Assembly (NCBI GenBank): GCA_001824435.1
Contig: MHXH01000026.1
Coordinates: 1 to 55,774 of the forward strand
From: Parcubacteria group bacterium RIFCSPLOWO2_01_FULL_48_18
GTDB taxonomy: Bacteria > Patescibacteriota > Minisyncoccia > UBA6257 > WO2-01-48-18
Direction: 5' to 3'
DNA: 55,774 nucleotides
Program-made: the position numbers and the translations under genes
Shown: one piece after another, positions 22,021-34,757 of the stretch
Layout: each line of letters starts with the position of its first letter
How positions within the stretch are numbered: position 1 is the stretch's first letter
The notes under the pieces: model-generated
Seen by the model: only the letters and a program-made list of their open reading frames with translations
Databases searched by the model: none
What the model was told of the DNA's origin: nothing

Positions 22021-22102
22021 CGAGCAATGGAATTTGGAATTTTGAATTCGGAATTTGGAAAAATTATTCTAAATTCTAAGTTCCAGATTCTAGATTCTAG
22101 AT

Positions 22103-23110
22103 TCATCTTTTGAATATGAGCGCCCGTTTATACAAATCAAGATGATCCAACATAACTCCGGCTCCTTTCGCGACGCAAAAGAGCGGCTCTTCCGCAATAT
22201 ACGTTGATACTCCAAGGGCGTGTTTAAAATACTCGTCGATCCCTCGGAGCATCGCGCCTCCTCCCGAAACAATAATTCCTTTCTCCATGACATCGGCAGC
22301 GAGTTCCGGGGGCGTATTATGAAACACCGATTTGATGGTGCTGACAATCTCTGAAAGATTGTATGCAAGCGCTTCGGCAATCTCATTGGAATTAATAGTG
22401 ATATTCTTCGGCAGATTGGTAACTAAGTCGCGGCCGCGGAGTTCAAATTCGAGCCTGGATTTCATCGGCAATGCAGAGCCGATCTCCCACTTCACGATTT
22501 CCGCCGTTTGCTCGCCAATAGCAAGCGCATATTTCTTTTTGACGTAGTCGATAATCGCCTGATCGAATTTATCTCCTGCGACGCGCAGCGACGCCCACGC
22601 CACAATGCCTCCCAATGAAATGACCGCCACCTCGGAGGTTCCTCCTCCGATATTGACAATCATGTTCCCCGAAGGGGTATTAATCGGGATGCCCGCTCCC
22701 AGCGCCGCCAAAATGGGTTCTTTAACGACATAGGCATTCTTCACCCTCGCTTCATAGGCGGCATTGAGCACGGCCCGTCTTTCCGTAGAAGTAATGCCAG
22801 CCGGCACGGAAATAACAACATCCGGCTTGAACACGCGAAACCTGCCAAGAGCTTTATCGATAAAATACCTCAGCATTGCCGCGGTAATATAATAATCAGC
22901 AATCACCCCTTCTTTTAAGGGACGGTGAGCGACAATGTCTTCCGGTGTCCGTCCGATCATTTCTTTGGCGCTTCTTCCTACCGCAACCACGCGATTATCA
23001 TTTAAATTGATTGCGACAATGGACGGCTCGTTAATAAGCAAGCCACGTTTCGGCACAAATACCAGCGTATTCGCAGTACCAAGATCAATGCCTATTTTTT
23101 TGATAAACAA
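22103..23110 (-). CDS. mreB: MreB/Mbl-family actin (paralogue 2)
   Basis: A 335-residue MreB homologue with G-I-D-L-G-T-A-N-T-L-V-F at residues 8-19, N-I-G-G-G-T-S-E-V-A for phosphate 2 and S-G-G-G-A-M-L-R-G. It lacks mreC and mreD neighbours and lies between murA and the clamp-loader gene. Divergence from the mreB at 15099-16154 suggests a specialised paralogue (Mbl- or MreBH-like). Flanking spacers are ATTCTAAATTCTAG-type repeats. Confidence 0.93.
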   Translation of the reverse strand: MFIKKIGIDLGTANTLVFVPKRGLLINEPSIVAINLNDNRVVAVGRSAKEMIGRTPEDIVAHRPLKEGVIADYYITAAMLRYFIDKALGRFRVFKPDVVISVPAGITSTERRAVLNAAYEARVKNAYVVKEPILAALGAGIPINTPSGNMIVNIGGGTSEVAVISLGGIVAWASLRVAGDKFDQAIIDYVKKKYALAIGEQTAEIVKWEIGSALPMKSRLEFELRGRDLVTNLPKNITINSNEIAEALAYNLSEIVSTIKSVFHNTPPELAADVMEKGIIVSGGGAMLRGIDEYFKHALGVSTYIAEEPLFCVAKGAGVMLDHLDLYKRALIFKR

Positions 23111-23201
23111 CGCTGGAGAAAAGTTAGAAATTAGAACATAGAATTTAGGGAAAATTTAATACTGACCCCCCCCCTAAATCCTAAATCCTAGATTCTAAAT
23201 T

Positions 23202-24482
23202 CTAGATTCTTTTAATATCGGCGCCTAGTTTTTGCAGCGCCTCGTCCAATCGCTCGTATCCTCTGTCAATCTGTTCTATGCCTTGAATAACCGATTTCCC
23301 GCTGGCAATGAGCGCGGCGATCACAAGCGTAGCGCCCGCGCGAATATCCAAGCTTCGTATTTCTATTCCGGAGAGGGGCGTCTTGCCGGTAATACTGGCA
23401 CGATGGGAATCTAACACTCGCGCTCGCGCTCCCATCTTTTTCAACTCATCGATATATTGTAACCTATTTTCAAACAACGTGTCAAAAATAAGGCTTTCCC
23501 CTTGTGCCTGCGTCGCAAGCACGCCAAACGGGGCCTGAAGATCCGTAGGAAATCCTGGATACGGAAGCGTTTGGATGTTTGCTCCCTTCAGCGTTCTGGC
23601 CGCGCCGACAATAAGCTCTCTGCCGCGGCACTCAAATCGGACGCCAAACTCTTTCAGTTTTTGGAGCGTCGCGATAAGATGATCGCACTGCGCGTCGTGG
23701 ATAATCAGTTTTTTCGCGGCCAAGGCTCCCACTACCAAAAATGTTCCAACCGCCAAGTAATCAGAAATAATACGGTGAACGATAGGGGCCAGAACGCCTT
23801 TTCTGCCGACGGCACGCTTTTTACCTTTTATAACAAGACTGTGGGTTCCGAGCCCTGATATTTCGACGCCGATTTTTTTTAGGAACAGACCAAGATCCTG
23901 CACGTGCGGCTCGGCAGCCGCCAAATGGATTTTTGTAGCTTGCGGCGTCAAGGAAAAAAACATCACCATATTCTCGGTCGCGGTCACGCTCAATTCCTTG
24001 AGTACAATCTCCCGCAACGGCTTTCCCGTTATCTTGAAATGATAACGACCCCTCCTACCGTCATACTCAACAGAAACGCCGGCGTCCCGAAATGCATTGA
24101 GGTGCGCATCAAGCGGCCGAGCGCCAATTTTATCTCCACCCGGGAAGCTGACGCTCACTTCATCGCCGCGAGCCAAAAGGGGACCGATCAGCAAGATAGA
24201 GGCGCGAATCCGAGACGCCAGCTGACCGTTAAGTTTTACCGGATCAATCTCGTCATTTACGATCTCAATGGTATGTTCATCGAGCCAGCGCTGGCGAGAG
24301 CCCATCTGCCTCAAAATTTGGAGCATTACTAAAACATCCCCGATTCGGGGAACATTCTGCAATATACACGAACGGTCTGTCAGGAGGGTCGCCGCGATAA
24401 TCGGAAGCGCGGCGTTCTTAGAGCCCTGAACCGTAACTTCACCCTCCAGTTTTCTGCCGCCATTAATAATAAACGACTGCAA
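23202..24482 (-). CDS. murA: UDP-N-acetylglucosamine 1-carboxyvinyltransferase (Cys-to-Asp form)
   Basis: A 426-residue MurA, the first committed enzyme of peptidoglycan synthesis (UDP-GlcNAc plus PEP to enolpyruvyl-UDP-GlcNAc). The start is intact (G-G-x-x-L-x-G-x-V-x-V-Q-G-S-K-N-A-A-L-P), as is the EPSP-synthase-like tail (G-Y-E-R-L-D-E-A-L-x-x-L-G-A-D). The catalytic loop reads F-P-G-G-D-K-I-G-A-R-P, with Asp117 where E. coli has Cys115. In known MurA families this substitution keeps activity and gives fosfomycin insensitivity. Confidence 0.95.
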   Translation of the reverse strand: MQSFIINGGRKLEGEVTVQGSKNAALPIIAATLLTDRSCILQNVPRIGDVLVMLQILRQMGSRQRWLDEHTIEIVNDEIDPVKLNGQLASRIRASILLIGPLLARGDEVSVSFPGGDKIGARPLDAHLNAFRDAGVSVEYDGRRGRYHFKITGKPLREIVLKELSVTATENMVMFFSLTPQATKIHLAAAEPHVQDLGLFLKKIGVEISGLGTHSLVIKGKKRAVGRKGVLAPIVHRIISDYLAVGTFLVVGALAAKKLIIHDAQCDHLIATLQKLKEFGVRFECRGRELIVGAARTLKGANIQTLPYPGFPTDLQAPFGVLATQAQGESLIFDTLFENRLQYIDELKKMGARARVLDSHRASITGKTPLSGIEIRSLDIRAGATLVIAALIASGKSVIQGIEQIDRGYERLDEALQKLGADIKRI

Positions 24483-24738
24483 AACAATTTAGGATTTAGG
24501 ATTTAGGATTTAGGATTTAGGATTCTTGTTCTTCCTAAGTTCTATATTCTAATTTCTAATCCCTTCATTCATTTATTGTACTATCAAATTAAACTTATCA
24601 CTTTTTCAGACAAAAAGAAGGGGCATCACTAAACGAAGTCGTGGTCAGCTAAAAAACCGCCTTGCGGACGGCCATGATTTTGCTTCAAGATATACTCTGT
24701 ATACTCTGCTGTCAAATTTCGTTTCGTGCGTGTGTGTG
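24483..24738. repeat. Non-coding spacer with ATTTAGG tandem repeats at the island's left edge
   Basis: Positions 24488-24524 hold about five tandem 7-bp ATTTAGG units, followed by ATTCTAATTTC-type sequence. At 24657-24671 a small hairpin with a GCAA loop is followed on the minus strand by six Ts, a possible minus-oriented terminator. No gene is seen. This is the last spacer of the repeat-rich core before the plus-strand block begins. Confidence 0.6.
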
Positions 24739-24767
24739 TTGACTTTTTGCTATTTTCACGCTATAAA
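24739..24767 (+). promoter_or_regulatory. Promoter of the His-rich protein-AAA+ operon
   Basis: -35 TTGACT (24739-24744), 17-base spacer, -10 TATAAA (24762-24767). It is preceded by an unusual GTGTGTGTGT run. The position rules out the in-frame ATG at 24767 as start and supports the ATG at 24809. Confidence 0.8.
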
Positions 24768-24808
24768 TGAGCAGGTTACTCGATAACTACATAACACGGA
24801 GAACCGGC

Positions 24809-25489
24809 ATGCCTTGCAACATCGGCTACAAAAGCTACGCGACCATCAAGATCCCCGCGCCCGAACCCCAAACGTTTACGAATAATGCCATGGCGCCCGA
24901 TATCGATGCAGACCTTCTTGAAAAACTCGGCCAGGAAGATACTCAATTCCTGGAGTGGGCACAAGAACTTAACACGAAGCCCCTCCTCGAAGAAGCGCTC
25001 AAGCGCGCGCTGGCAAAAGTGAACACCGGAGGCCTCGTCTTTATAGTAAGCTACGCCGGCGAGCTTGAAGCAAAAGGCTCGTTCACGAGCGCTACCGAAA
25101 AGAACCGCCTCTCGGCCGCAGCCGCCGAAGTTTCGGCACGCTGGCAATTCGAAATCCTCGGCATCGTCGCCGAACTTCTAAACTACACGGTACGCATCAC
25201 CCACAAGGGCGGCGAGTTTATCCTTGAAGCCGAAGAAGAAGACAAGACACACCCGTGCGACTACATCAAGGTTAGCAAGAAGGGCGGCGACGCGACCATC
25301 GTATTCGAACACTTCAAGTCGCGCGACGCCCTCAAGCTTGAAACGGCCAAAGTGCTCGTGCTTGCGCATAAGCTTGGCATCAAAATAGCGCTCGGGAAGT
25401 CCGAGGTGACCGAAGGCGATCCACTTCCCAACGAAAATCGCTTGCGGCATCGCCACGATCACGGACACTCCCCTGACCACAGCCACTAA
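24809..25489 (+). CDS. Island protein 1: hypothetical with His-rich C-terminus
   Basis: A 226-residue soluble protein of unknown family. The start at M-P-C-N-I-G-Y-K is preceded by GGAGA at 7-base spacing; an in-frame ATG 42 bases earlier overlaps the -10 box. The middle is alpha/beta (G-G-L-V-F-I-V-S-Y-A, W-Q-F-E-I-L-G-I-V-A-E-L-L). A C-terminal half has charged strands (G-G-E-F-I-L-E-A-E-E-E-D), and the last residues are R-H-R-H-D-H-G-H-S-P-D-H-S-H, a likely metal-binding tail. It is 28 bases upstream of the AAA+ gene and shares its promoter, so the products may form a complex. A distant parallel is the small DUF genes that accompany Ycf46-type ATPases, but I cannot show homology. Confidence 0.82.
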   Translation: MPCNIGYKSYATIKIPAPEPQTFTNNAMAPDIDADLLEKLGQEDTQFLEWAQELNTKPLLEEALKRALAKVNTGGLVFIVSYAGELEAKGSFTSATEKNRLSAAAAEVSARWQFEILGIVAELLNYTVRITHKGGEFILEAEEEDKTHPCDYIKVSKKGGDATIVFEHFKSRDALKLETAKVLVLAHKLGIKIALGKSEVTEGDPLPNENRLRHRHDHGHSPDHSH

Positions 25490-25517
25490 CCCGAAGGCCG
25501 GCAAAAAGGAGGCTGCG

Positions 25518-27500
25518 GTGAAAACGGAAACCGAATACGCTGAAACAGAAAACGTTTTACCAAGCTGGCTGACGGAAGGCATCGTAAGCCGCAAAGAGGC
25601 AGGTATTTCTTCCGTGTTCATTCTTCACGGAGACATCACCTGTCTTGTGCCCAACCCTTACGGAGACGCAGAGAAAGAATTTCCATATCTGCCCCTCCAT
25701 GAACTGTTCGCCCGAACGTGGGACGAACGAGCGATGGTGATTTTTTATAACATCGCCTCCGGCCTGCGCTTTCTCACTCCCGAAATGGAAAAAGTTTTTC
25801 GTAAGGTGACAGAACCGGAGAAAGACAGCGACGCGGATTCTAAAGACCCTGTAGCAGCTGCGAAGGCTGGACTGGCCGCAAAACGGGCTTTGCCGCGGGA
25901 ACCCGAACTATGCCTGCCGCTCATTGAGAAAGTCTTGAAGAACATGAAGGATGTCGCCATCGTTGTAGAATCAGCGCACTTCATCGTTCCGGAATCGACC
26001 GGTCCGGCGCTTTCGCCGAACGAACGTACGCACATCCAACGTTTCCGGAACTGGGCGCACGAAAGCGGTATGAAAAGGCGGAACAATATCGTTCTTCTGT
26101 TCACCGATCTCGCTGCGAAGATCTCGGGAGAGCTGCGACAGTCTTCAAGTCGCATTTCGATCGTTTTCATTCCAAAACCGTCGCCGGAGGAACGCAAAAA
26201 ATACCTCCTGCGGCTTACCAAGGGATCGGATGCGCGGTCTGAAATCGTCGAGAAGATCGGCGAGCTGAAAAAAAAGCTCAAACGCGCCAAGGGCGAACCG
26301 AAGTCTGATCTTGAAGCCGAAATTTCGGCCCTCGAAAAAAACCTGGATGATTTTCCATCGGTCTTTCCGGTGCCGGACGATTTTGACACCGACGCGTTCG
26401 TCAACGCCACGCAAGGCATGAGCTTGCGCCAGATTCTTGAAATTTTCCGGCTCAATAAACAGACGGGGTGCCCGATCGACCTTTCATTCGTGCGGGAAAA
26501 AAAGAAGGAAGTCCTCAACAACGAATATGGTTCGGTCATGGAAATCACCGATCCGCAGTGGAGCCTCGAAGAAATCGGTGGGCTCGTTACGCAAAAAGCC
26601 CACTTCGAGCGGATACTCGATGCGATCCGGCGGGGAGAGGCCCGTAACATCCCGCAAGGCATTACGATCATGGGTCCGCCGGGAACCGGCAAAACGGCGC
26701 TCGTTGAAGCTCTTGCGAAGGGCGCGCGCTTCAATTTCGTCAAAATGAAAAACGCCCGCTCCATGTGGGTAGGCGAATCCGAACAGCGAACGGAGTTGCA
26801 GATCCAGGGGCTCTGGGCGCTCGCCCCGGTCATCGTCATGAACGACGAAGCGGACCTCGGCGAGGCGAATCGCGATGCCCCGAAAGGCGATTCAGGAGTT
26901 TCCGAACGCATCATGCAAACCTGGATGCGATTCCTCTCTGATCCCCGTATCCGCGGCAGAGTCCTGATGATAAACTGCACCAACCGCCCTGACCGCATGG
27001 ATGCGGCCATGAAACGATCCGGCAGAAGCGATGATCGCATTGCAATCCTCATGCCCTCGGTCAACGAACTTGAAGCGATTTTCCAAGTGATGTTCAAACG
27101 ATACAAAATCCCGATGTCGATTTCTAACTTTCGTCCGTTCGCTCAAATGACGCTTGGATTTTCGGGAGCAGACGTCGAGGCCATCACGCTCAAATCGTTT
27201 CGATTTGCAGGCGAGCAGGACAAAAAGAAGGTCGATGAGACCGCCCTACACGAAGCCATCGAAGATTTCATTCCTTCGGCGAGCCAGTCGGAAATCGACC
27301 TGATGACGCTACTCGCAATCTCCGAATCGTCCTCACGCAGACTCCTACCGGTAAACACGCGCGAGATCGTTCAGGCGATTAAAATCCGCAACCTTGTTCC
27401 CGGCGGGCCGGAGCTGATAGCGCAGATAGAAGCCCGCAATATCGTCAAACTCGAAGACCCTCTACCGGTTCCGTCTGTATCTCCGAAAATGCTGAAGTAA
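25518..27500 (+). CDS. Island protein 2: two-module Ycf46-like AAA+ ATPase
   Basis: A 660-residue protein with a GTG start 5 bases after AAAAAGGAGG. The C-terminal AAA+ module is complete: Walker A G-P-P-G-T-G-K-T (386-393), Walker B V-I-V-M-N-D-E-A-D (438-446), sensor 1 I-N-C-T-N-R-P-D (485-492), an arginine-finger-like S-G-R-S-D-D-R (501-507), and a sensor-2 helix after G-F-S-G-A-D-V-E-A-I (547-556). The N-terminal third (about 20-240) looks like a degenerate AAA module without a Walker A; a charged coiled coil (about 243-278) joins the two. This layout resembles the Ycf46 class of classical AAA ATPases. The neighbouring vWA proteins suggest it remodels or inserts something into a vWA-bound target, as in MoxR/vWA pairs (inference). 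Confidence 0.9.
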   Translation: MKTETEYAETENVLPSWLTEGIVSRKEAGISSVFILHGDITCLVPNPYGDAEKEFPYLPLHELFARTWDERAMVIFYNIASGLRFLTPEMEKVFRKVTEPEKDSDADSKDPVAAAKAGLAAKRALPREPELCLPLIEKVLKNMKDVAIVVESAHFIVPESTGPALSPNERTHIQRFRNWAHESGMKRRNNIVLLFTDLAAKISGELRQSSSRISIVFIPKPSPEERKKYLLRLTKGSDARSEIVEKIGELKKKLKRAKGEPKSDLEAEISALEKNLDDFPSVFPVPDDFDTDAFVNATQGMSLRQILEIFRLNKQTGCPIDLSFVREKKKEVLNNEYGSVMEITDPQWSLEEIGGLVTQKAHFERILDAIRRGEARNIPQGITIMGPPGTGKTALVEALAKGARFNFVKMKNARSMWVGESEQRTELQIQGLWALAPVIVMNDEADLGEANRDAPKGDSGVSERIMQTWMRFLSDPRIRGRVLMINCTNRPDRMDAAMKRSGRSDDRIAILMPSVNELEAIFQVMFKRYKIPMSISNFRPFAQMTLGFSGADVEAITLKSFRFAGEQDKKKVDETALHEAIEDFIPSASQSEIDLMTLLAISESSSRRLLPVNTREIVQAIKIRNLVPGGPELIAQIEARNIVKLEDPLPVPSVSPKMLK

Positions 27501-27508
27501 TTACAGAG

Positions 27509-27538
27509 CCTTGCCGCCCCCGCGCGACAAGGTTTTTT
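27509..27538 (+). terminator. Terminator after the AAA+ gene
   Basis: Stem CCTTG-C-CGC paired with GCG-A-CAAGG (one C-A mismatch), followed by TTTTTTC. It lies 8 bases after the stop codon. Confidence 0.82.
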
Positions 27539-27591
27539 CTTTTGCAATCACACCGTAGGGTCCAGATACAGTTTTATTATCGAAACTCGAG

Positions 27592-27621
27592 TTGACAGAA
27601 GAATCGTGCCAATGATACCAT
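27592..27621 (+). promoter_or_regulatory. Promoter of the first vWA gene
   Basis: Perfect -35 TTGACA (27592-27597), 18-base spacer, -10 TACCAT (27616-27621) with the extended -10 TGA just upstream. The leader to the start codon is about 80 bases. Confidence 0.65.
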
Positions 27622-27710
27622 AGAGCTGGATTGAAACCTTGAAAATAGAATGTCGCGGCCCGAACGATCTTCCGGCAACTCACCAACAACCCACACAAAA
27701 GGAGGCTGGT

Positions 27711-28736
27711 ATGGGCGGTGGCGGCGACTATTACGGTCGGGACGTAACCGACAAGAGATACCGTAGCGCGAGCGGCGCTTCGAACATGGCGGAACGGGAG
27801 CTGTCTCGAGCTTCAATCGATACATCCTTCCTGCCAAAGAATCGCAGATTGGAGTGCAATGCTCTCAATCCCCTCGTGTATGCATTCGACGAAACTGGTT
27901 CAATGGACAAACTGCCGAAGATCATCTACGACAAGTGGCCGGGCATTGTGGGCCAGATCGTGGCGCGCAAGTACTTATCCGATCCGCAGATGAGCCTTGC
28001 GGCCATTGGCGACATCACTTCCGACACGGCACCGATCCAGATCGCCCCGTTTTCGGCATTGCGCAACCTCGACCGATATTTCAGAAATATCTATTTCGAG
28101 GGTAATGGTGGCGGCCAAAGCCAAGAATCATACGAGATGATGGCGTATTACTACGCTTATCTGTGCGATATCCCGAAAGCGGAAAATCCTATCTTCCTAT
28201 TTACCGGAGACGAGGGATTCCGAGAAAAGCTTTTTGCGTATGATCTCTTCGAACATTTCGGCGGCGAGCATAAAGAAACGACGGCAAAGAAGGTTTTTGA
28301 CGACCTGCTCAAAAAGTTCAAAGGTAACGCATTCCTCATCCATCGCTACTACCCCGGTGGAAAAGACCCGTCAATCGTGCGTCAGTGGGAAGGAGCGCTT
28401 GGCAAGGAACGTATCATCCGAATGCCCGAAGGCGAGAGCGGTGATCTGGCTATCGGCGATATCACTCTCGGCGTCTACGCCATCGTTTCCGGCGGGCGCA
28501 CGCTTGAACAGTATCTCGAGGATATGCGCACCCGCCCGCTCGATCTCGGCACAGACATTGAGTACGAGCCGCAGACTCCCGCGCGCATCAGAGATGTGGC
28601 CAAGGCGCTTAAACCTCTCGAGAACTTCAGGCCCGTTAAAGCTCCGCGCCGGACCGCGAAGTCGGCCAACGGTAAGACGTCCTCCGAGAAAAAGCCGCCT
28701 GCGAAAAAAAAGGGAAAGGGTAACTTCAGATTTTAG
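27711..28736 (+). CDS. Island protein 3: vWA-domain protein A
   Basis: A 341-residue protein. The start at M-G-G-G-G-D-Y-Y follows AAAAGGAGG at 5 bases. The vWA domain begins near residue 53 with Y-A-F-D-E-T-G-S-M, a metal-ion-dependent adhesion site of D60-x-T62-x-S64 type. Other MIDAS-loop residues probably lie in A-A-I-G-D-I-T-S-D and F-L-F-T-G-D-E-G. The C-terminal 50 residues are Lys/Pro/Ala-rich and disordered, ending K-K-K-G-K-G-N-F-R-F. A second vWA protein in the same block ends K-K-K-G-D-F-K-F. No signal peptide is present, so it is cytoplasmic. vWA proteins next to AAA+ ATPases usually act as adaptors or substrate receptors. Confidence 0.85.
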   Translation: MGGGGDYYGRDVTDKRYRSASGASNMAERELSRASIDTSFLPKNRRLECNALNPLVYAFDETGSMDKLPKIIYDKWPGIVGQIVARKYLSDPQMSLAAIGDITSDTAPIQIAPFSALRNLDRYFRNIYFEGNGGGQSQESYEMMAYYYAYLCDIPKAENPIFLFTGDEGFREKLFAYDLFEHFGGEHKETTAKKVFDDLLKKFKGNAFLIHRYYPGGKDPSIVRQWEGALGKERIIRMPEGESGDLAIGDITLGVYAIVSGGRTLEQYLEDMRTRPLDLGTDIEYEPQTPARIRDVAKALKPLENFRPVKAPRRTAKSANGKTSSEKKPPAKKKGKGNFRF

Positions 28737-28751
28737 TTGATTAGATTTAAG

Positions 28752-28780
28752 CCGTGAGCAGATCGCTCACGGTCTTTTAT
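28752..28780 (+). terminator. Terminator after vWA protein A
   Basis: Perfect 8-bp stem CCGTGAGC/GCTCACGG with a 5-base loop, followed by TCTTTTATTATT. Confidence 0.88.
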
Positions 28781-28782
28781 TA

Positions 28783-28811
28783 TTGACTATCGTGCATCCG
28801 GGTGGTACAAT
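28783..28811 (+). promoter_or_regulatory. Promoter of the pyruvate-kinase-like gene
   Basis: -35 TTGACT (28783-28788), 17-base spacer, -10 TACAAT (28806-28811). It starts immediately after the preceding terminator. Confidence 0.82.
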
Positions 28812-28865
28812 TGTGGTGTTCTTTAACAACAAGTCGTTAAAGCCGCAACGCGGAGAGGAAACGAC

Positions 28866-29792
28866 ATGCTCATTTTAACATTGCCGCAGGTGCATCAAAA
28901 AGACCTGCTCAAAGACATGATCGCCCACCCGCTTGTCAAAGCGGTGCGATACAACACGGGCACGAATTCAGCGTACAGTCCGCGAGAAACCCTTCGACGA
29001 ATCTCAACTCTCGCACAGCCTTTCAAAAAACCCGTATATGTTGACCTCAAAGCCAAGCAACTGCGCGTGGTCGAATGGGCAAATCTGCCCGAGGGGCCGA
29101 TCGTACTCAACCACCGTATTACCGTTACGCTCCCCGCAACAGTCTGCTTTCGGGGTGACGACCGCTCACAATTATGCGAAGTGGTCGACGGCAACCAAAT
29201 TTATGTTGACCCGCTGCCAAAGTATCCGGTGGGGCGCGGACAGGCCGTTAACATTCTCGCGCCCGATCTCAAGATCGAGGGCGGGTTGCTACCGGCTGAC
29301 CACGACTACATTGAAGCCGCGCTAGCCGAAGGCATGTCCCGGTTCATGCTTTCATTCGTCGAGAATATGGACGACGTGCGTGAACTGGAAAATGCTATCG
29401 GGCGCTATCGCAAATCACGGACAAAGACTCCATGCGAGATCGTGCTGAAAATCGAATCGCGTGCCGGGATCGACTTTGTCGCAAAAACTGAAACCAGCCT
29501 CCTGCGTCCGTACCGGCTCATGGCTGCGCGAGACGACCTGATGATCCAGATCGGCATCAACGCTATGCCAGACGCCCTCAAGATAATCATTGAAAAGGAC
29601 CGGCATGCGATCTGCGCCTCACGCCTGCTCATGGGCCTTGAAACAGGCGCGATATCGATGGCCGACGTATCTGATCTGGAGTACATGAAATCGTTATCGT
29701 ATGGGATATTCATGCTCTCCGACAGCATCTCGCGTAACCACTTCCGCCCGGCCATGGATTTCTGGCTTTCGTATACAGGCGGTACCCCGTGA
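28866..29792 (+). CDS. Island protein 4: pyruvate-kinase-like TIM-barrel protein without C domain
   Basis: A 308-residue protein with GGAGAGG ahead of the ATG. The order of motifs follows pyruvate kinase: R-Y-N-T-G-T-N-S (28-35, compare R-x-N-x-S-H-G), V-D-L-K-A-K-Q-L-R (59-67), a shortened B-domain-like strand region (85-140), L-L-P-A-D-H-D-Y-I (141-149), S-F-V-E-N-M-D-D-V (163-171), L-K-I-E-S-R-A-G (194-201, catalytic Lys and metal Glu), and A-R-D-D-L (221-225, compare A-R-G-D-L, metal Asp kept). The C-terminal regulatory domain is missing; ordinary enzymes have about 470 residues. The Mg/phosphoenolpyruvate pocket seems partly preserved, so a related reaction on another substrate is possible. 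HpcH/CitE-type aldolases are the alternative. Confidence 0.78.
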   Translation: MLILTLPQVHQKDLLKDMIAHPLVKAVRYNTGTNSAYSPRETLRRISTLAQPFKKPVYVDLKAKQLRVVEWANLPEGPIVLNHRITVTLPATVCFRGDDRSQLCEVVDGNQIYVDPLPKYPVGRGQAVNILAPDLKIEGGLLPADHDYIEAALAEGMSRFMLSFVENMDDVRELENAIGRYRKSRTKTPCEIVLKIESRAGIDFVAKTETSLLRPYRLMAARDDLMIQIGINAMPDALKIIIEKDRHAICASRLLMGLETGAISMADVSDLEYMKSLSYGIFMLSDSISRNHFRPAMDFWLSYTGGTP

Positions 29793-29860
29793 GTACTTAT
29801 GCGGGGCGTTCTCATGGACCGATTCTGTCCTGTGCATACGGGGGGACATAAGGCGTACGC

Positions 29861-29889
29861 TTGACGCGGCGGCATTGATCATATACAAT
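29861..29889 (+). promoter_or_regulatory. Promoter of the second vWA gene
   Basis: -35 TTGACG (29861-29866), 17-base spacer, -10 TACAAT (29884-29889). The transcript leader would contain a hairpin at 29907-29933 (GACCC/GGGTC arms) just before the ribosome binding site. Confidence 0.82.
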
Positions 29890-29966
29890 ATCGGTGCAGT
29901 AAATTGCGACCCGGGGTTTTTACCTCGGGGTCGGCTTGCTTACAGAACCTTAACAACGGGGGACAA

Positions 29967-31106
29967 ATGAGAGAAAAGGGCGATTGGTCACGGGCGACAT
30001 ACCGAGACACCGAGACAAAGACCAAGAAATTCGGTAGCGCGACGTTTGTCGGCGAAGAACGGGCACGTCAAGGCAAGGGCCTTGATTCCTTGATCGACCC
30101 TTCACAGCGCGGAGTCATCCGCGAATCGAATAATCTGCTCGTGCCCGACGGAGATGAATTCATTCTCAAGTTCGGCGTTGCGATGCCGGTCGAGACTGAT
30201 TTCGATACGACCGGGTCGATGGGTGGCAATGTTGACGTCGCTTTTGCGGTTCTGCCGAAAGTGCAGGGTCTTTTAGTTCAAGGGGCGAACGCTGTCCTAC
30301 GCCGGTATCACACCCAGATCGCCACCGGCGTTATCCAGGACCGCCTGGATCGATTCCCCTACCAACGATCGCAGTTCGAACCCGACAATGAAGTTGAGCG
30401 TCAAATGGGATTACTGGTCCCCGAACGCAGTGGTGGGGACAGTACCGAAGATTACCAGCTGGGACTATTCGCGGCTGCCCACCTCACCAGCACGAGCATT
30501 ACGCGGTACGGCCTGCGAGGCTATTACTTCGTTGTGGGAGATGAAATCGGGCGCGACTCGCTCGACCCCAAGCTCCTCACTAAAGTTTTCGGTCCCGAGG
30601 TCATCGAAAAGGCCTTTGGTTCAAAACCTCCGAAGTCCCTGCCTTCTACCCGCGAGGTCGCGAAGAAGGTACTCGAAAACTGGCATGGCTTTTTCCTGCA
30701 AGTAGGCACAAACCGCTACACGAAGGACTGGTGGACAGAAATCTTCGGGAGCGAGCGGGTGATTCAACTGCCGACAACCCAGGATCTCGCCGAGATCCAA
30801 GCATGCGTCATCGGCCTTACCGAAGGCGTACTCGACCTCAGGAACGCCATGGATTTCCTCAAAGACATGGAAGTCAGTCCGGCGAAAACCCAGAAGATCG
30901 TTGATGCGATTTCCCAAATTCCGGTTGGCTTGCAGACGACGCTTCCAAGCTTCAACCGGATCCCGGCTGCAGGCGCACGATTCGCAAGCCGCGAAGACAT
31001 CTGGCCGATCGGCACGAAGAAGGACATGGCTGCCAAAACCGAAAAAACCGGCAAGCCTGGCAAAACTGCCAAGCCCGGCAAGAAAAAGGGCGATTTCAAG
31101 TTCTAA
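29967..31106 (+). CDS. Island protein 5: vWA-domain protein B
   Basis: A 379-residue protein. The start at M-R-E-K-G-D-W-S was chosen because it follows GGGGGAC; a longer reading from 29904 would begin inside the leader hairpin. The vWA domain starts near residue 75 with T-D-F-D-T-T-G-S-M (MIDAS D80-x-T82-x-S84), then L-R-G-Y-Y-F-V-V-G-D-E-I as a second metal-loop strand. A helical segment (about 285-330) precedes a Lys/Pro/Gly-rich tail ending K-K-K-G-D-F-K-F. Overall similarity to vWA protein A is low outside the MIDAS and tail, so these look like two subunits rather than a recent duplication. Confidence 0.84.
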   Translation: MREKGDWSRATYRDTETKTKKFGSATFVGEERARQGKGLDSLIDPSQRGVIRESNNLLVPDGDEFILKFGVAMPVETDFDTTGSMGGNVDVAFAVLPKVQGLLVQGANAVLRRYHTQIATGVIQDRLDRFPYQRSQFEPDNEVERQMGLLVPERSGGDSTEDYQLGLFAAAHLTSTSITRYGLRGYYFVVGDEIGRDSLDPKLLTKVFGPEVIEKAFGSKPPKSLPSTREVAKKVLENWHGFFLQVGTNRYTKDWWTEIFGSERVIQLPTTQDLAEIQACVIGLTEGVLDLRNAMDFLKDMEVSPAKTQKIVDAISQIPVGLQTTLPSFNRIPAAGARFASREDIWPIGTKKDMAAKTEKTGKPGKTAKPGKKKGDFKF

Positions 31107-31129
31107 ATTCTGACCTGTTCAAAAAACCA

Positions 31130-31157
31130 GGGCGGCCCCACTCGGTCGCCCGTTTTT
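31130..31157 (+). terminator. Terminator between vWA protein B and the PurA-like gene
   Basis: Stem GGGCGGCC paired with GGTCGCCC (one G-T pair), 6-base loop, followed by TTTTT. It ends only about 20 bases before the PurA-like start codon, and no promoter lies between. Expression of that gene therefore needs read-through, which makes this site a possible attenuator. Confidence 0.78.
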
Positions 31158-31176
31158 AAAAAGAAAGGAGGCGCGC

Positions 31177-32586
31177 ATGGCAAAGAAGGTTTTCGTGGTA
31201 ACAGGACTCGGCTACGGCGATGAAGGAAAGGGCACGATCACGCACTGGCTGTGCCATGCGCACAGGGCTCACACGGTGGTACGGACGGGCGGACCGCAAG
31301 CGCTCCACCGCGTCGTCACCGCCGCGGGCAAAGAACATGTGTTTTCACAATTCGGTAGCGGCACGCTCTGCGGATCGGCCACTCACCTATCAAAGCACAT
31401 GGTGATCGATCCATATGCGATCCTGAAAGAGGGCGAAGCGCTCATGTACGAGCATGGGGTCCGCGGCCTCTTCGACATGCTCACGATCCACGAGGACGCC
31501 TTAGTTATCACGCCGTTTCAAGCAATCGTCGGTAGACTACGCGAACTTCTGCGTGGCGCCAAGCGGCACGGATCGGTTGGCATCGGGGTAGGAGAAACGG
31601 TGCTTGATGACGATGTGTTTGGCGATACCGCAGTCCGCGCAAAAGACCTTAACGCACCTTCCCTGCGGACCAAACTTGAAGCTATTCGGCTCCGCAAGTT
31701 GACAGAATTCGAGGAAATTCGCGACCGCGCCCATGTCCTTCCGCCGGAGACGAGAGATCGCATCCAATTGGAACTCCGCGATCTTGAAGATCCGGATACG
31801 ATCCAATGGGCAGTCGAGCAATTCACGAAGCTCGCATGCAAAACCAGAGTCGTCGGCACGGAGTATGTTGCAAAAAATATTCTGGAGAGCGACGGCACCG
31901 TGGTGTTTGAGAGTTCCCAGGGAGTGCTCCTTGATCGCTGGTACGGATTTCATCCATACACCACAAAGGTCAGAACCATCCCAGGAACGGCACTTTCGAT
32001 CATCCGGGAATGCGCGTATGGCGGCGAGATCAACGCCTATGGCATCCTGCGCGCGTACCACACGCGGCACGGCGCAGGTCCATTCGTAACAGAGTCATCA
32101 GAAATAACAGCGCTTCTGCCCGACGCCTCAAATCGGGACCATGCGTGGCAAGGCAATTTCCGAGTCGGCCAGTTCGATCTCGTAGCCGCCAGATATGCTG
32201 TCGACGCATGCGGTTCGCATTCCCTTGATGGCATCATACTTACATGCATGGACCGGATCCGCCCTTCGGCCACGGTTCGCTTCGCCGAAAGATACGAATC
32301 CGTGCCGGTAGAGCACACGCAGGACTTTTTCCGCAGATCAACCGACACATCGATCGAGCGGATCATTGTCCGCCATGGACAAGGCCCTGCACAGCTACAG
32401 CGGCAAGAAAAACTAGGAAAGGCTTTGGAAACATGCTCGCCACGTCTTACGCAATGCACAAAAAATATCTTTCCCGAGATGCTCGCGGACGCGCTCAACG
32501 TACCGATCGTGGCCATTTCTACGGGCCAGACCGAAGATAATAAATCGGTAGTTACCCAAATAGAAAAACGGGCGGTTTCATTATGA
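31177..32586 (+). CDS. Island protein 6: divergent adenylosuccinate-synthetase-like protein
   Basis: A 469-residue PurA homologue with AAAGGAGG 7 bases before the ATG. PurA joins IMP and aspartate using GTP. Conserved here: the phosphate loop G-Y-G-D-E-G-K-G (12-19) with catalytic Asp15, His44, E-S-S-Q-G-V-L-L-D (Gln248), L-R-A-Y-H-T-R-H-G-A-G-P-F-V-T-E (291-306), Arg329, the guanine-contacting Asp of L-T-C-M-D, and S-T-G (448-450). Changed: G-T-T-G-R-G-I-G reads G-S-V-G-I-G-V-G (132-139), the R-R-R-R-T-G-W segment reads G-N-F-R-V-G-Q, and T-K-L-D reads T-C-M-D. The IMP-binding residues are hit hardest, so the GTP-dependent activation may act on another substrate. No purB or other purine gene is nearby. 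Confidence 0.85.
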   Translation: MAKKVFVVTGLGYGDEGKGTITHWLCHAHRAHTVVRTGGPQALHRVVTAAGKEHVFSQFGSGTLCGSATHLSKHMVIDPYAILKEGEALMYEHGVRGLFDMLTIHEDALVITPFQAIVGRLRELLRGAKRHGSVGIGVGETVLDDDVFGDTAVRAKDLNAPSLRTKLEAIRLRKLTEFEEIRDRAHVLPPETRDRIQLELRDLEDPDTIQWAVEQFTKLACKTRVVGTEYVAKNILESDGTVVFESSQGVLLDRWYGFHPYTTKVRTIPGTALSIIRECAYGGEINAYGILRAYHTRHGAGPFVTESSEITALLPDASNRDHAWQGNFRVGQFDLVAARYAVDACGSHSLDGIILTCMDRIRPSATVRFAERYESVPVEHTQDFFRRSTDTSIERIIVRHGQGPAQLQRQEKLGKALETCSPRLTQCTKNIFPEMLADALNVPIVAISTGQTEDNKSVVTQIEKRAVSL

Positions 32587-32605
32587 AACTGCCCTGTTTA
32601 TTTTT
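32570..32605 (+). terminator. Terminator overlapping the PurA-like stop codon
   Basis: Stem GGGCGGTTTCA/TGAAACTGCCC (11 bp, one G-T pair) around a 3-base loop, with the stop codon TGA in the 3' arm. A T-rich tail (TGTTTATTTTTCTT) follows. It also separates the convergent nucleotidyltransferase gene. Confidence 0.85.
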
Positions 32606-32649
32606 CTTATTTTCCGATCACTCCATCCGCTCAGCGGTCTTTCCGGCCA

Positions 32650-34599
32650 TTAATCACTCTTGCTTACAATCTGGGGAAGAAACACGCGGCTTACAAACAA
32701 TGTAGTCGCCAACCGTCTGTATCCAGAATCCCAAAAAACGCTCTGCGGATCAATGCCGTGCGCGTTCGGTGCCTTGATGCCGCCCTGCTCCGGGTACAAA
32801 CGTCGGTAGCCCTTGTGCATCAAACGGTACTGCAAAACCTCGCGCTCAATCCCCTTCAACCATTCTGTTCTCGCGTCATGCGATTCAAACTTCTTGCCAT
32901 TCGAGTAAAGAAATCCGGGCAAGAGATTTGCATAGAGCTCTTTGATCGCCTCTTGCGACCCGAACCAAACACCGCCGAGTAACACATGTGCCCATGTACT
33001 GTCGGCGAGCGAGACGTCCATATCCGCAAGGTCGCGAACGACGAGCTTGTCGCCCTTCGCGCCTTCGGCAGCAAGCCAGAACTCGACGATGCTTCCGCGG
33101 ATCTTGTTATCCGGAAACACACGGGAGAGGGCTTGTCGTATACGGGGACGGTCCGCGAAAAGAACATCCGCCTTCACAAAAACTGCGATATCGACATCCG
33201 CGTTGCGCTTGGCATACCCCTTAAGTCGTGATCCGAAAAAAATGACAATCGGATAAAGGAGCCGCGAGAGCTCATCGTCCATTCGCACGGCCTCTATGAC
33301 AGGCGCAAGTTTTTCGAGCTCGGCCGCAATCAACCGATTGCCATTTAAATGTAGCTTGTCCAGGCACGGGACTTCGATCCCGAACCACTCCAAGAATGAG
33401 CTTTGAAGAATTCCCTGATTCACCCAACGAATAAGGACGCTGGTTATGGCGTCTCTCTCACCGGGCACGCCTTTCACCCATGCATCTCGCAAATCGGCTT
33501 GAAAGCTGCCCGCCATCTCGACCGCCCTCGAAGAACCGGCTGTAACCAGTAACTCCACAGCTCTTCCAAGACCGCGAATGATCGCTAAACGGAGAACCTT
33601 CCCATCGGCAGACGCGAGAAGGGCCCGAATATCACTAACTCTCTCCGGGTTTCCGGCAAGCAGCATTGCCATTCGATCGGCGTATCTGCTCGCAAGCTTA
33701 TCTTCTCTATCGAGCCGTTCCCATGCTACCCTGGGCCGAGGCAGGTCACGGGACTCATCGAGGGTCACGCGCATCTCTATTTTTTTCATTTCGAATTCCG
33801 CATCGGCTGCAAGACCGGCAAGCCATGCGCGATCCGTCTTCGTCTGCGCGCAAATGCTTGCATTCCTCTTTTCCGCATACGGATAGAAGCCGTGCGCACG
33901 GGTGATACGATCGCACTCACCGTAATCAAGATACGACATGCCCGCAAGAACAGGCAGGACATCGACTACGCCCCGCCTCAAGGCTTCAGAAGGATTCGTG
34001 TCCAAAAGAGCAACCGCATCCGCCGTAGCAAGAAGTTCTTTTTCGACAAGATATGGAATCAGGTGGGCAGCCTTGCACACAACGGGCTGGCCGCTTGGGC
34101 TCAATTCCGTTTCCAATATATCCCCATCTACAAAATTGGCCCGTACATCTTTTTCAACAAGCAGCTCGCGCCAGCATTTCATATACGAGGCGCGGAAATG
34201 CTCGGCGGCACCGGCAACCCGAGAGGAACGGGACTGCCAATTTTTCCTCGGCACAAGCTCGAATGGAAAGTAAAGGACAAGTCTTCGGTTATACGAGTCA
34301 CTGTCCAAAAAGTCTGCCAGCATCGCATACAGCTCTGCGGCGAACTCCGGATCAACGTTTCCCGAATCTATTGCTTCAGTCAATTCCGCGGTCACAAGCG
34401 GCAGCTGCTTGAAAAGCGCATCAAGCTTAGCGAACAAATCCAGGCGCTGGCGGGCATCAACCCGTATGAACGGGTTTTCCCGTATTTCAACCGGCCAGAA
34501 AGAGCTCTCGCGCGCTATATGAAGAAGAGATTCTATGGCTGGCGGAACATCAATAACTTCAAACAACTGCGCCGCTCCGCTTTCGTTCGAATCAGTCAT
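32650..34599 (-). CDS. Large protein with a minimal nucleotidyltransferase motif
   Basis: A 649-residue protein with AAAGGAGGAG 5 bases before the ATG. The polymerase-beta-type nucleotidyltransferase signature is near residues 451-475: I-V-I-F-F-G-S-R-L-K-G, then D-V-D-I-A-V-F, with Gly456-Ser457 and metal ligands Asp468 and Asp470. A third acidic residue may be Glu506 in I-V-E-F-W. The N-terminal 430 residues are mostly helical with no motif that I recognise. It is convergent with the plus-strand block but shares its base composition and ribosome-binding style, so I regard it as part of the same island. Such enzymes transfer NMP to proteins, RNA or small molecules; the substrate is unknown. 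Confidence 0.82.
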   Translation of the reverse strand: MTDSNESGAAQLFEVIDVPPAIESLLHIARESSFWPVEIRENPFIRVDARQRLDLFAKLDALFKQLPLVTAELTEAIDSGNVDPEFAAELYAMLADFLDSDSYNRRLVLYFPFELVPRKNWQSRSSRVAGAAEHFRASYMKCWRELLVEKDVRANFVDGDILETELSPSGQPVVCKAAHLIPYLVEKELLATADAVALLDTNPSEALRRGVVDVLPVLAGMSYLDYGECDRITRAHGFYPYAEKRNASICAQTKTDRAWLAGLAADAEFEMKKIEMRVTLDESRDLPRPRVAWERLDREDKLASRYADRMAMLLAGNPERVSDIRALLASADGKVLRLAIIRGLGRAVELLVTAGSSRAVEMAGSFQADLRDAWVKGVPGERDAITSVLIRWVNQGILQSSFLEWFGIEVPCLDKLHLNGNRLIAAELEKLAPVIEAVRMDDELSRLLYPIVIFFGSRLKGYAKRNADVDIAVFVKADVLFADRPRIRQALSRVFPDNKIRGSIVEFWLAAEGAKGDKLVVRDLADMDVSLADSTWAHVLLGGVWFGSQEAIKELYANLLPGFLYSNGKKFESHDARTEWLKGIEREVLQYRLMHKGYRRLYPEQGGIKAPNAHGIDPQSVFWDSGYRRLATTLFVSRVFLPQIVSKSD

Positions 34600-34652
34600 A
34601 TCTCCTCCTTTCGGTCGCGATATCCAATTTTAATTGTTAAAGAAACAATACT

Positions 34653-34682
34653 ATTATACGCTCGGCTTTGGCTATTTGTAAA
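34653..34682 (-). promoter_or_regulatory. Promoter of the nucleotidyltransferase gene
   Basis: On the minus strand: -35 TTTACA (34682-34677), 18-base spacer, -10 TATAAT (34658-34653). It leaves a leader of about 45 bases before the gene. Confidence 0.75.
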
Positions 34683-34757
34683 GGAAAGAAGCCCAATGGT
34701 TCAACTACGTAACTCGTAGGCTTATTAAAACCGAGTGGGAAGTCAAACCGTACGAAA

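Follow-up and report, generated by a model that had tools for sequence, protein, structure and literature searches.

A 55,774-nucleotide stretch of Patescibacteria DNA (the window) carries a widespread mobile system in its AAA+-type form. Its core is a vWA protein and an adenylosuccinate synthetase homolog (PurA-like), often with a pyruvate-kinase homolog (PK-like), and two kinds of leader precede this core: in Patescibacteria and Myxococcota hisR with a Cdc48-like AAA+ ATPase, in large phages and plasmids a J-domain kinase. The system appears to be without a name or known function. Large phages commonly carry the module, yet annotation at present presents its PurA gene as that of a metabolic or Z-DNA enzyme; with the near-obligate vWA partner, the loss of the aspartate site, and the exchange of kinase for AAA+ recognized, a defined set of two to four proteins results.

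Layout of the island

The island, flanked by murA and by the rpsI region, is part of a Patescibacteria chromosome and comprises six plus-strand genes and one convergent minus-strand gene (24809-34599), a layout that the original prediction had given and that the ORF positions bear out. Conserved starts shifted the beginnings of three genes, hisR (to 24809), vWA1 (27711), and vWA2 (29967). In relatives that do not have the block murA is close to rpsI, which argues that the block is mobile. The island had also been described as GC-rich with repeat-free spacers, and both hold: GC is 0.52-0.56 over 25-34 kb and 0.43-0.50 in the flanks on both sides, and the TTTAGGATTTAGG-type repeats present at 22.0-24.6 kb are absent from the island spacers. 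The strong ribosome binding sites said to be shared by all the genes stand for only four of the seven (AAA, vWA1, PurA, and NTase, AAAGGAGG-type), those of hisR, PK-like, and vWA2 being weaker.

Promoter-like sites, each a consensus match only, lie upstream of vWA1 (TTGACA-18-TACCAT, 27592..27621, plus strand), PK-like (TTGACT-17-TACAAT, 28783..28811, plus), vWA2 (TTGACG-17-TACAAT, 29861..29889, plus), and NTase (TTTACA-18-TATAAT, 34653..34682, minus). Terminator-like hairpins on the plus strand are found 3′ of vWA1 (28751..28773), vWA2 (31130..31151), and PurA-like (32570..32594).

Distribution and leader genes

Eight loci, in seven Patescibacteria genomes and one Myxococcota genome ("Deltaproteobacteria"), hold hisR, AAA+, vWA1, PK-like, and PurA-like together (in this count the PurA gene of one locus is cut by a contig end). 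vWA2 is usually present in these AAA+-type loci as well, and the AAA+ and vWA genes are adjacent in 8/8. The AAA+, vWA, PurA-like, and PK-like genes, suggested at the outset to form one system, recur together across eight genomes from two phyla. The AAA+ type is nonetheless rare, its AAA+ profile being found only in the window's own genome among sampled genomes of the phylum (1/380).

Searching viral sequences with vWA1 and AAA+ of the window gave no matches, and the phage link was found only via tblastn of vWA1. In IMG/VR, 78 of 80 loci with the vWA family carry a PurA-like gene, always downstream and on the same strand (members of the same phage lineage do not count as independent loci); the reverse search found vWA in 78 of 82 PurA-like loci, the other four being cut upstream at the contig edge. 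In IMG/VR the vWA family is on about 370 contigs and the PurA-like family on about 386. Carriers are mostly large phages, mycobacteriophage Tonenili (PurA-like gp104) among them, along with plasmids, including a kinase-vWA-PurA operon on a plasmid of a soil Rhodococcus, and the chromosomes of Patescibacteria and Myxococcota. The alternative that the block is phage- or plasmid-borne is strongly supported by this occurrence of the vWA-PurA core in viral contigs and on plasmids. One could still regard the seven genes, which have separate promoter- and terminator-like sites, as accessory genes that came to lie together by chance, but the recurrent set in two phyla and the near-obligate vWA-PurA linkage in viral contigs refute this and leave it practically no likelihood.

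In phages and plasmids the J-domain kinase (present in 67 of the 80 IMG/VR vWA loci) takes the position held by hisR/AAA+ in the window. Among the loci screened, kinase and hisR/AAA+ never lead one and the same locus, and the first 80 viral loci yield a single AAA match, a weak, generic one (7e-9). Viral contig L121 has kinase, vWA, PK, and PurA in one run, in the same order as the Myxococcota locus. In three other loci (L037, L119, and L120) a PK-like gene is present with no PurA-like gene near vWA.

The first gene of every AAA+-type locus is hisR (24809..25489, plus strand), whose 226-aa product has eight homologs with 35-65% identity and an invariant N-terminus, MPC[DN]IG. It matches no family in Pfam, NCBIfam, or PHROG, and at E<0.001 its AlphaFold2 model (pLDDT 72) has no counterpart in the PDB or among viral folds. 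The AAA+ ATPase (25518..27500, plus strand; Pfam AAA, PF00004, 1.5e-21) has homologs with 51-72% identity, a degenerate first domain, and a second domain with active-type motifs (GPPGTGKT, NDEAD, and pore-loop SMWVGESE). Its best profile match is VCP/Cdc48 D2, with Cdc48/PAN also among the best families, and bpMoxR reaches only E 0.12. A chelatase- or MoxR-like identity was dropped, since the profiles place the protein as Cdc48/VCP-like with a degenerate first domain; with it goes the proposed analogy to metal chelatases, as in most family members a kinase replaces the AAA+ protein.

The vWA proteins and their enzyme partners

The vWA domains of the island escape detection by Pfam. vWA1 (27711..28736, plus strand) has a DxTGS motif and a Lys-rich tail ending GNFRF-COOH, and vWA2 (29967..31106, plus strand), a divergent second member of the vWA1 family that matches PHROG 2971 at 8.7e-11, has a tail ending GDFKF-COOH. 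Foldseek pairs the AlphaFold2 model of vWA1 (pLDDT 84.6) with integrin beta-I and vWF A1 domains of the PDB (E 1e-6 to 4e-5, prob 1.0), so its vWA fold is, as modelled, real. Of the predicted remodelling machine of AAA+, two vWA proteins, and a His-rich partner, the AAA+ and the vWA fold stand; the His-rich C-terminus of hisR is not conserved among its homologs.

Both vWA genes end in C-terminal motif codons, those of vWA1 being NFRF-stop (28722..28736, plus strand) and those of vWA2 DFKF-stop (31092..31106, plus strand). Of 74 distinct tails of phage vWA proteins, 43 have a [KR][LIVF] terminus vs 5.7% of background ORFs, and within each AAA+-type locus the vWA1 and vWA2 tails match one another. 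When the genome was searched for the tail as a DNA pattern, seven sites came up; two are vWA1 and vWA2, and the remainder resemble an AT-rich repeat by appearance. The idea that the tail is specific to AAA+-type loci, implying AAA+ docking, was dropped, since the phage vWA tails show it to be family-wide.

PK-like (28866..29792, plus strand; 308 aa) is a pyruvate-kinase barrel that lacks the C-terminal domain (Pfam PK 1.4e-8; 44-53 bits against full-length pyruvate kinase models with cut-offs of 306-432). It keeps Lys195, Glu197, and Asp224 (yeast Lys240, Glu242, and Asp266) and the active-site Arg, with a conservative change of Thr298 to Ser252, and in the alignment its phosphotransfer residues are invariant in six homologs. 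The minus-strand NTase gene (32650..34599) encodes a 649-aa protein with a Pol-beta-type domain (GS...DxD; Pfam Polbeta 4e-5, just below cut-off). It is accessory, being present in three loci, with homologs only in L014/L019 and L020.

PurA-like (31177..32586, plus strand) is a clear adenylosuccinate synthetase homolog (Pfam 4.3e-50) in which the catalytic Asp13, His41, and Gln224 of PurA are kept; in the family alignment D15, K18, H44, and Q248 are invariant in 88/88 proteins and D359 is present in 87/88. Position N38 is Gln in 86/88 and V273 is His in 88/88. In the whole family the aspartate loop Thr300-Thr301-Gly-Arg303 has given way to x-[WFY]-Q-G-x-[hydrophobic]-R (in shorter form [W/F/Y]-Q-G-x-F-R), so that T301/R303/R305 become [W/F/Y]/Gly/hydrophobic. 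R303 is the aspartate contact in PurA, and PurZ has an aspartate-touching loop with a conserved T273-T276 tip (PMC8342488). Since the catalytic Asp, Lys, His, and Gln are kept but the aspartate-binding loop is lost, the family is, judged by these residues, neither PurA nor PurZ. The two metabolic homologs had been predicted to have altered active sites, and this is right for the PurA-like aspartate loop; the catalytic residues of PurA-like and the phosphotransfer residues of PK-like are kept. In the PurA-like tree the six Patescibacteria sequences group together inside the viral diversity with weak support, the Myxococcota sequence lies elsewhere, and the deep branches lack resolution.

These residues bear on three other readings. 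PurA-like might be an ordinary, fast-evolving adenylosuccinate synthetase that boosts purine supply, with vWA and kinase or AAA+ as its assembly chaperone; auxiliary metabolic genes are common in phages, and the homology and kept catalytic Asp, His, and Gln agree with this. We consider it decidedly unlikely, because the loop is replaced family-wide, N38 and V273 are uniformly changed, the window protein scores 133.9 bits against the NCBIfam PurA equivalog cut-off of 402, and a supply enzyme would not need near-obligate vWA linkage. Synthesis of a modified deoxynucleotide for genome hypermodification, as by PurZ for 2-aminoadenine, is suggested by the match to PHROG 1211 ("2-aminooxy adenylosuccinate synthetase", 8.7e-63) and by the predominance of large phages among carriers. 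The score against the PurZ model is, however, 42 bits (cut-off 300), the catalytic Asp kept in 88/88 is Ser in all 147 phage PurZ sequences (PMC12884076), and hypermodification is not expected on the plasmids and the Patescibacteria and Myxococcota chromosomes that also carry the system, all of which makes it quite improbable. A MoxR-vWA-like conflict or remodelling machine, with PurA-like and PK-like as clients, sensors, or decoys and no new nucleotide made, would fit the AAA+ plus vWA logic, the mobile, scattered distribution, and the dispensability of PK-like, which at the three loci named above occurs with no PurA-like gene near vWA. This too is unlikely, as the AAA+ is not MoxR and decoys would not be expected to conserve the catalytic residues of both enzymes.

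Proposed function and comparison with known systems

The reading that we prefer, and hold tentatively, is that PurA-like may be an NTP-dependent purine-6 ligase with a co-substrate other than aspartate, scaffolded by vWA, switched by AAA+ or kinase, and probably linked to NAD/ADP-ribose conflict. The enzyme would use NTP to activate the purine 6-oxygen of its substrate in the manner of PurA and join to it an amine other than aspartate (we infer this from the lost aspartate contacts alone), so that its product would be either a purine nucleotide substituted at position 6 or a target that bears a modified purine. The MIDAS site and C-terminal [K/R]-[L/F] tail of vWA would keep enzyme and client together, the kinase or AAA+, each able to stand in for the other, would be the energy-driven switch by which the complex is activated or dismantled, and PK-like would supply or remove high-energy phosphate; the likely setting would be conflict between mobile element and host. 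The original prediction of a modified nucleotide or cofactor made with AAA+/vWA help survives as plausible in its purine-modifying chemistry, because the PurA-like catalytic residues are intact and the co-substrate pocket is changed, and loses its chelatase-type loading.

The tie to NAD or ADP-ribose, as trigger or substrate, is suggested by the recurrence of ADP-ribose-responsive-type repressors and NAD-synthesis genes. Nudix-repressor-type genes, several of which match the NCBIfam ADPR-responsive NtrR model, are present at 4/4 plasmid loci examined, at L020, and at four IMG/VR loci of the first set; the window has no Nudix repressor match. NadE/NadD-type genes adjoin L022 and L023, and NadE is near L020. 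NAD synthase occurs in four of the seven system-bearing Patescibacteria vs 5 of 100 relatives (5 of 101 at E<=1e-20), groups that are not lineage-matched, and two system-bearing genomes are without it. An ADP-ribosylglycohydrolase gene is near L022 and L037/L119 only, being absent from the window block and most loci. The NAD context could instead be incidental and the system unrelated to NAD: the window block and most phage loci have no NAD genes, and NAD salvage genes are frequent in large phages anyway. We think this possible but on the unlikely side, given that plasmid, phage, and Patescibacteria loci repeatedly have genes for NrtR-type repressors and that NAD synthase is rare in relatives.

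Taken more broadly, the system could quite possibly, if not yet probably, be an unrecognized mobile signalling or conflict class in which a PurA-derived enzyme, held by vWA and controlled interchangeably by a J-domain kinase (phages and plasmids) or a Cdc48-like AAA+ (bacteria), makes a new 6-substituted purine or modifies an NAD/ADP-ribose-type molecule. If a new purine derivative is made, this would be new nucleotide chemistry for phage-host conflict and could account for part of the unexplained phage PurA homologs (481 in one survey, with 147 phage sequences in the PurZ group; PMC12884076).

The original prediction knew of no named system with this gene set, and we found none matching the block in PADLOC, PHROGs, NCBIfam, or full-text papers, nor any description of the vWA-PurA pair in the literature; the set recurs in distant genomes. 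The MntA/HepT toxin-antitoxin differs, as NTase scores 26.7 bits against the MntA model (cut-off 60) and no HepT partner is among the family matches of the block. Similarity of the AAA+ to that of the IetAS anti-phage system is detectable (PADLOC IetA 2.6e-12), but it scores 38.8 bits against the NCBIfam IetA cut-off of 510 and has a different partner set, with no IetS-type protease among the block's family matches. Neighborhoods of the ARG-centred ADP-ribose-countering systems can combine genes for a Nudix repressor, ADP-ribosylglycohydrolase, NADAR, and vWA (PMC9503650, section 3.8); PurA and pyruvate kinase are unmentioned there, and the glycohydrolase is missing from the window block.

The MoxR-vWA ternary conflict systems (VMAP, iSTAND, FtsH, and beta-propeller types; PMC7159879) have in common with the island an AAA+, a vWA, further partners, and a scattered, conflict-like distribution. 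Their AAA+ is of the MoxR clade, whereas here it is Cdc48-like and most of the family has a kinase instead; none of VMAP, iSTAND, FtsH, or beta-propeller is among the Pfam/NCBIfam matches of the block's other proteins. The partners here are PurA-like and PK-like enzymes, and adenylosuccinate synthetase and pyruvate kinase go unmentioned in that paper (PMC7159879). Canonical PurA shares with PurA-like its fold family, the catalytic Asp, Lys, His, and Gln, and the NTP-base Asp, and differs at N38 (Gln here), V273 (His here), and the replaced aspartate loop, with PurA-like scores far under the NCBIfam cut-offs. PurZ/PurZ0, of 2-aminoadenine synthesis in Z-DNA phages, are likewise phage-borne adenylosuccinate synthetase homologs (PMC8342488, PMC12884076), but in PurZ the catalytic Asp has become Ser and the aspartate-contacting loop is kept, whereas the PurA-like family keeps the Asp and has lost the loop.

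The block and its relatives in bacterial genomes

The block (24809–34599) comprises six plus-strand genes, encoding a protein with a His-rich C terminus (hisR), an AAA+ protein, a vWA protein (vWA1), a pyruvate-kinase-like protein (PK-like), a second vWA protein of the same family (vWA2) and an adenylosuccinate synthetase homolog (PurA-like), and a convergent gene for a Pol-beta-type nucleotidyltransferase (NTase). Its GC content is 0.52–0.56 vs. 0.43–0.50 outside. Pfam supports the AAA, PK barrel and PurA assignments and weakly that of the NTase, and it detects no vWA domain in the block; the AlphaFold2 model of vWA1 (33 input relatives, pLDDT 84.6) has integrin beta-I and vWF A1 domains as its top PDB matches. 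The AAA+ profile lies nearest the second domain of VCP/Cdc48, and the protein, as read from its sequence, has Walker A, Walker B and an MWVG pore loop, with a first domain that carries no Walker motif. In block-free relatives (L213, L227) rpsI follows murA by 0.5–0.9 kb, and thus the block occupies a conserved chromosomal site. Immediately to its left (22030–24570), the spacers around mreB and murA are filled with AT-rich repeats, both direct and inverted (TTTAGGATTTAGG, CTAGATTCTAGATTC).

The block is also present in two genomes of the same order but another family, with protein identities of 54–71% (NTase 36%) and different flanking genes. When 84,980 genomes were scanned with vWA1, seven loci emerged: these two (L018, L019), four more in Patescibacteria (L017, L020, L022, L023) and one in a "Deltaproteobacteria" (Myxococcota) genome (L021). 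By gene calls, hisR, AAA+, vWA1, PK-like and PurA-like are found at all eight loci including the window, save for one PurA truncated where its contig stops; seven loci have vWA2 and three the NTase. PK-like and PurA-like are divergent relative to the other cassette genes in L022, and a NadE-NadD fusion precedes PK-like in L023. In a sample across the phylum the AAA+ profile was found in 1 of 380 genomes.

Separately, gene clusters in the window's own genome (contig C18, L007:8125–13724) and in genome G005 (L016:7889–14093) encode ubiquitin-like, E1-like and E2-like proteins (judged by eye from sequence), a Cdc48-like AAA+ that is a distant relative of the window's and a ClpP-family protease (Pfam 5e-28); they are possibly bacterial ubiquitin-like tagging and degradation operons.

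A vWA–PurA core with apparently swappable drivers

Overall, these genes constitute a multi-gene system that is conserved and mobile and has a vWA–PurA core and swappable drivers, the leading genes of each locus. Large phages and plasmids were matched by vWA1 (tblastn), and in the annotated neighborhoods inspected a kinase-like gene, a vWA and an annotated adenylosuccinate synthetase occur together in mycobacteriophage Tonenili and in plasmids of Rhodococcus, Tsukamurella, Acetobacter and Agrobacterium. A Vibrio phage carries vWA with PurA, and an uncultured 485-kb phage has kinase, vWA and PK-like. In its clearest example the kinase bears a J domain (Pfam DnaJ 1e-14, Pkinase 7e-29).

Scanning IMG/VR with the vWA alignment gave 371 relatives. 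At the best 80 of these, PurA-like lies downstream on the same strand in 78 (median gap 94 nt) and a kinase is present in 67, upstream on the same strand in 63 of them. The reverse scan with PurA-like gave 386 relatives, and vWA is found at 78 of the 82 loci inspected (79 of them taken from the reverse scan and three from a PK-like scan), the other four each starting <1 kb from a contig edge. Many contigs are common to both scans, which therefore do not sample independently. Kinase, vWA and PurA-like show correlated pairwise distances (Spearman 0.63–0.81, 64 loci), as is expected if the genes travel together. The order kinase-vWA-PK-PurA of L121 is that of the Myxococcota locus, hisR-AAA-vWA-PK-PurA, and no locus in the viral vWA, PurA-like and AAA+-type sets carries both hisR/AAA+ and the kinase; we infer that hisR/AAA+ and the kinase stand in for each other as drivers of a single vWA-(PK)-PurA core. 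In one group of IMG/VR contigs (L082–L111), genes for an R2K-clade ATP-grasp, a DNA-ligase-like protein and a Swiss-Army-Knife HAD RNA-repair protein flank the kinase-vWA-PurA module.

The C-terminal motifs of vWA1 and vWA2 match each other at every AAA+-type locus (GNFRF/GDFKF in the window; DWKL/GWKL, SWQL/SWQL, SWKL/DWKL, SWKI/DWKI, GRIF/GRIF and DWKL/DWKL elsewhere), and a [KR][LIVF] terminus ends 43 of 74 distinct phage vWA tails vs. 5.7% of background ORFs. A third small protein of L023 (12180–12440; 86 aa, Cys-containing) lies within the cluster and has a tail of the same type, PWKL. As both kinds of driver come with the tail, PurA-like or the vWA protein itself would be a likelier receptor for it than the AAA+. 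At L015:7789–12219 (genome G039), a radical-SAM activase gene overlaps a distant AAA+ relative, and this relative and a 138-aa protein both end in RRGGLKL, resembling the vWA tails.

The PurA-like and PK-like enzymes

Among 88 PurA-like proteins (E. coli numbering), Asp13, Lys16, His41 and Gln224 are invariant, Thr239 and Asp333 are conserved in 87, Asn38 is replaced by Gln in 86 and Val273 by His in all. Neither Arg131 nor Arg143, the latter an IMP-phosphate contact in E. coli PurA, is conserved. The aspartate loop ATTGRRRR has become x-[WFY]-Q-G-x-[FL]-R. Aspartate is contacted by R303 and the tip of the PurZ loop T273–T276 (PMC8342488); with Arg303 and the threonines lost, the known contacts are gone. 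We conclude that these proteins would still carry out NTP activation of the purine 6-oxygen, probably with an amine substrate other than that of PurA. The retained Asp rules out PurZ (PMC12884076). PHROG 1211, matched by 31177–32586, is labeled "2-aminooxy adenylosuccinate synthetase"; its vWA-linked members lack the PurZ signature, so for them the label looks wrong. In six PK-like homologs the pyruvate kinase center still has its Lys, Glu, Asp and Arg, with Ser in place of Thr298.

NAD/ADP-ribose context and known systems

Nudix-repressor-like genes adjoin L020, each of the four plasmid loci inspected and, in the first IMG/VR set, four loci. The Agrobacterium, L020, L053, L061 and L112 copies hit the ADPR-responsive NtrR model with E-values of 1e-39 to 1e-52, short of the model cut-off, and those of Tsukamurella and Rhodococcus do not match it. 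NadE is close to L020; together with NadD it adjoins the system in L022, and the two are fused in L023. NAD synthase (1e-20) is found in 4 of 7 system-bearing Patescibacteria vs. 5 of 100 relatives (Fisher p 8e-4; the groups are not matched by lineage). Genes for ADP-ribosylglycohydrolase occur close to L022 and L037/L119, and one for NADAR close to L036. Together these are suggestive of, but do not prove, a tie to NAD/ADP-ribose. NAD synthase is rare among these Patescibacteria, the window's own genome and its relatives taken together (5 of 101, E ≤ 1e-20), and nicotinamide/nicotinate phosphoribosyltransferase family genes lie <5 kb from vWA at L053, L071, L076 and L112.

The vWA scaffold might present or restrain a purine-6 ligase that would be switched by AAA+ or kinase action, with PK-like handling a high-energy phosphate and a trigger or substrate linked to NAD/ADP-ribose, perhaps in conflict between element and host. 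The vWA family is PHROG 2971, of unknown function in PHROGs, and no prior description of the system was found in PHROGs, PADLOC, NCBIfam or the literature covered (open-access papers and a minority of preprints). Membership of MoxR-vWA, PurA, PurZ, IetAS and MntA was checked feature by feature, and the system departs from every one of them in at least one defining feature.
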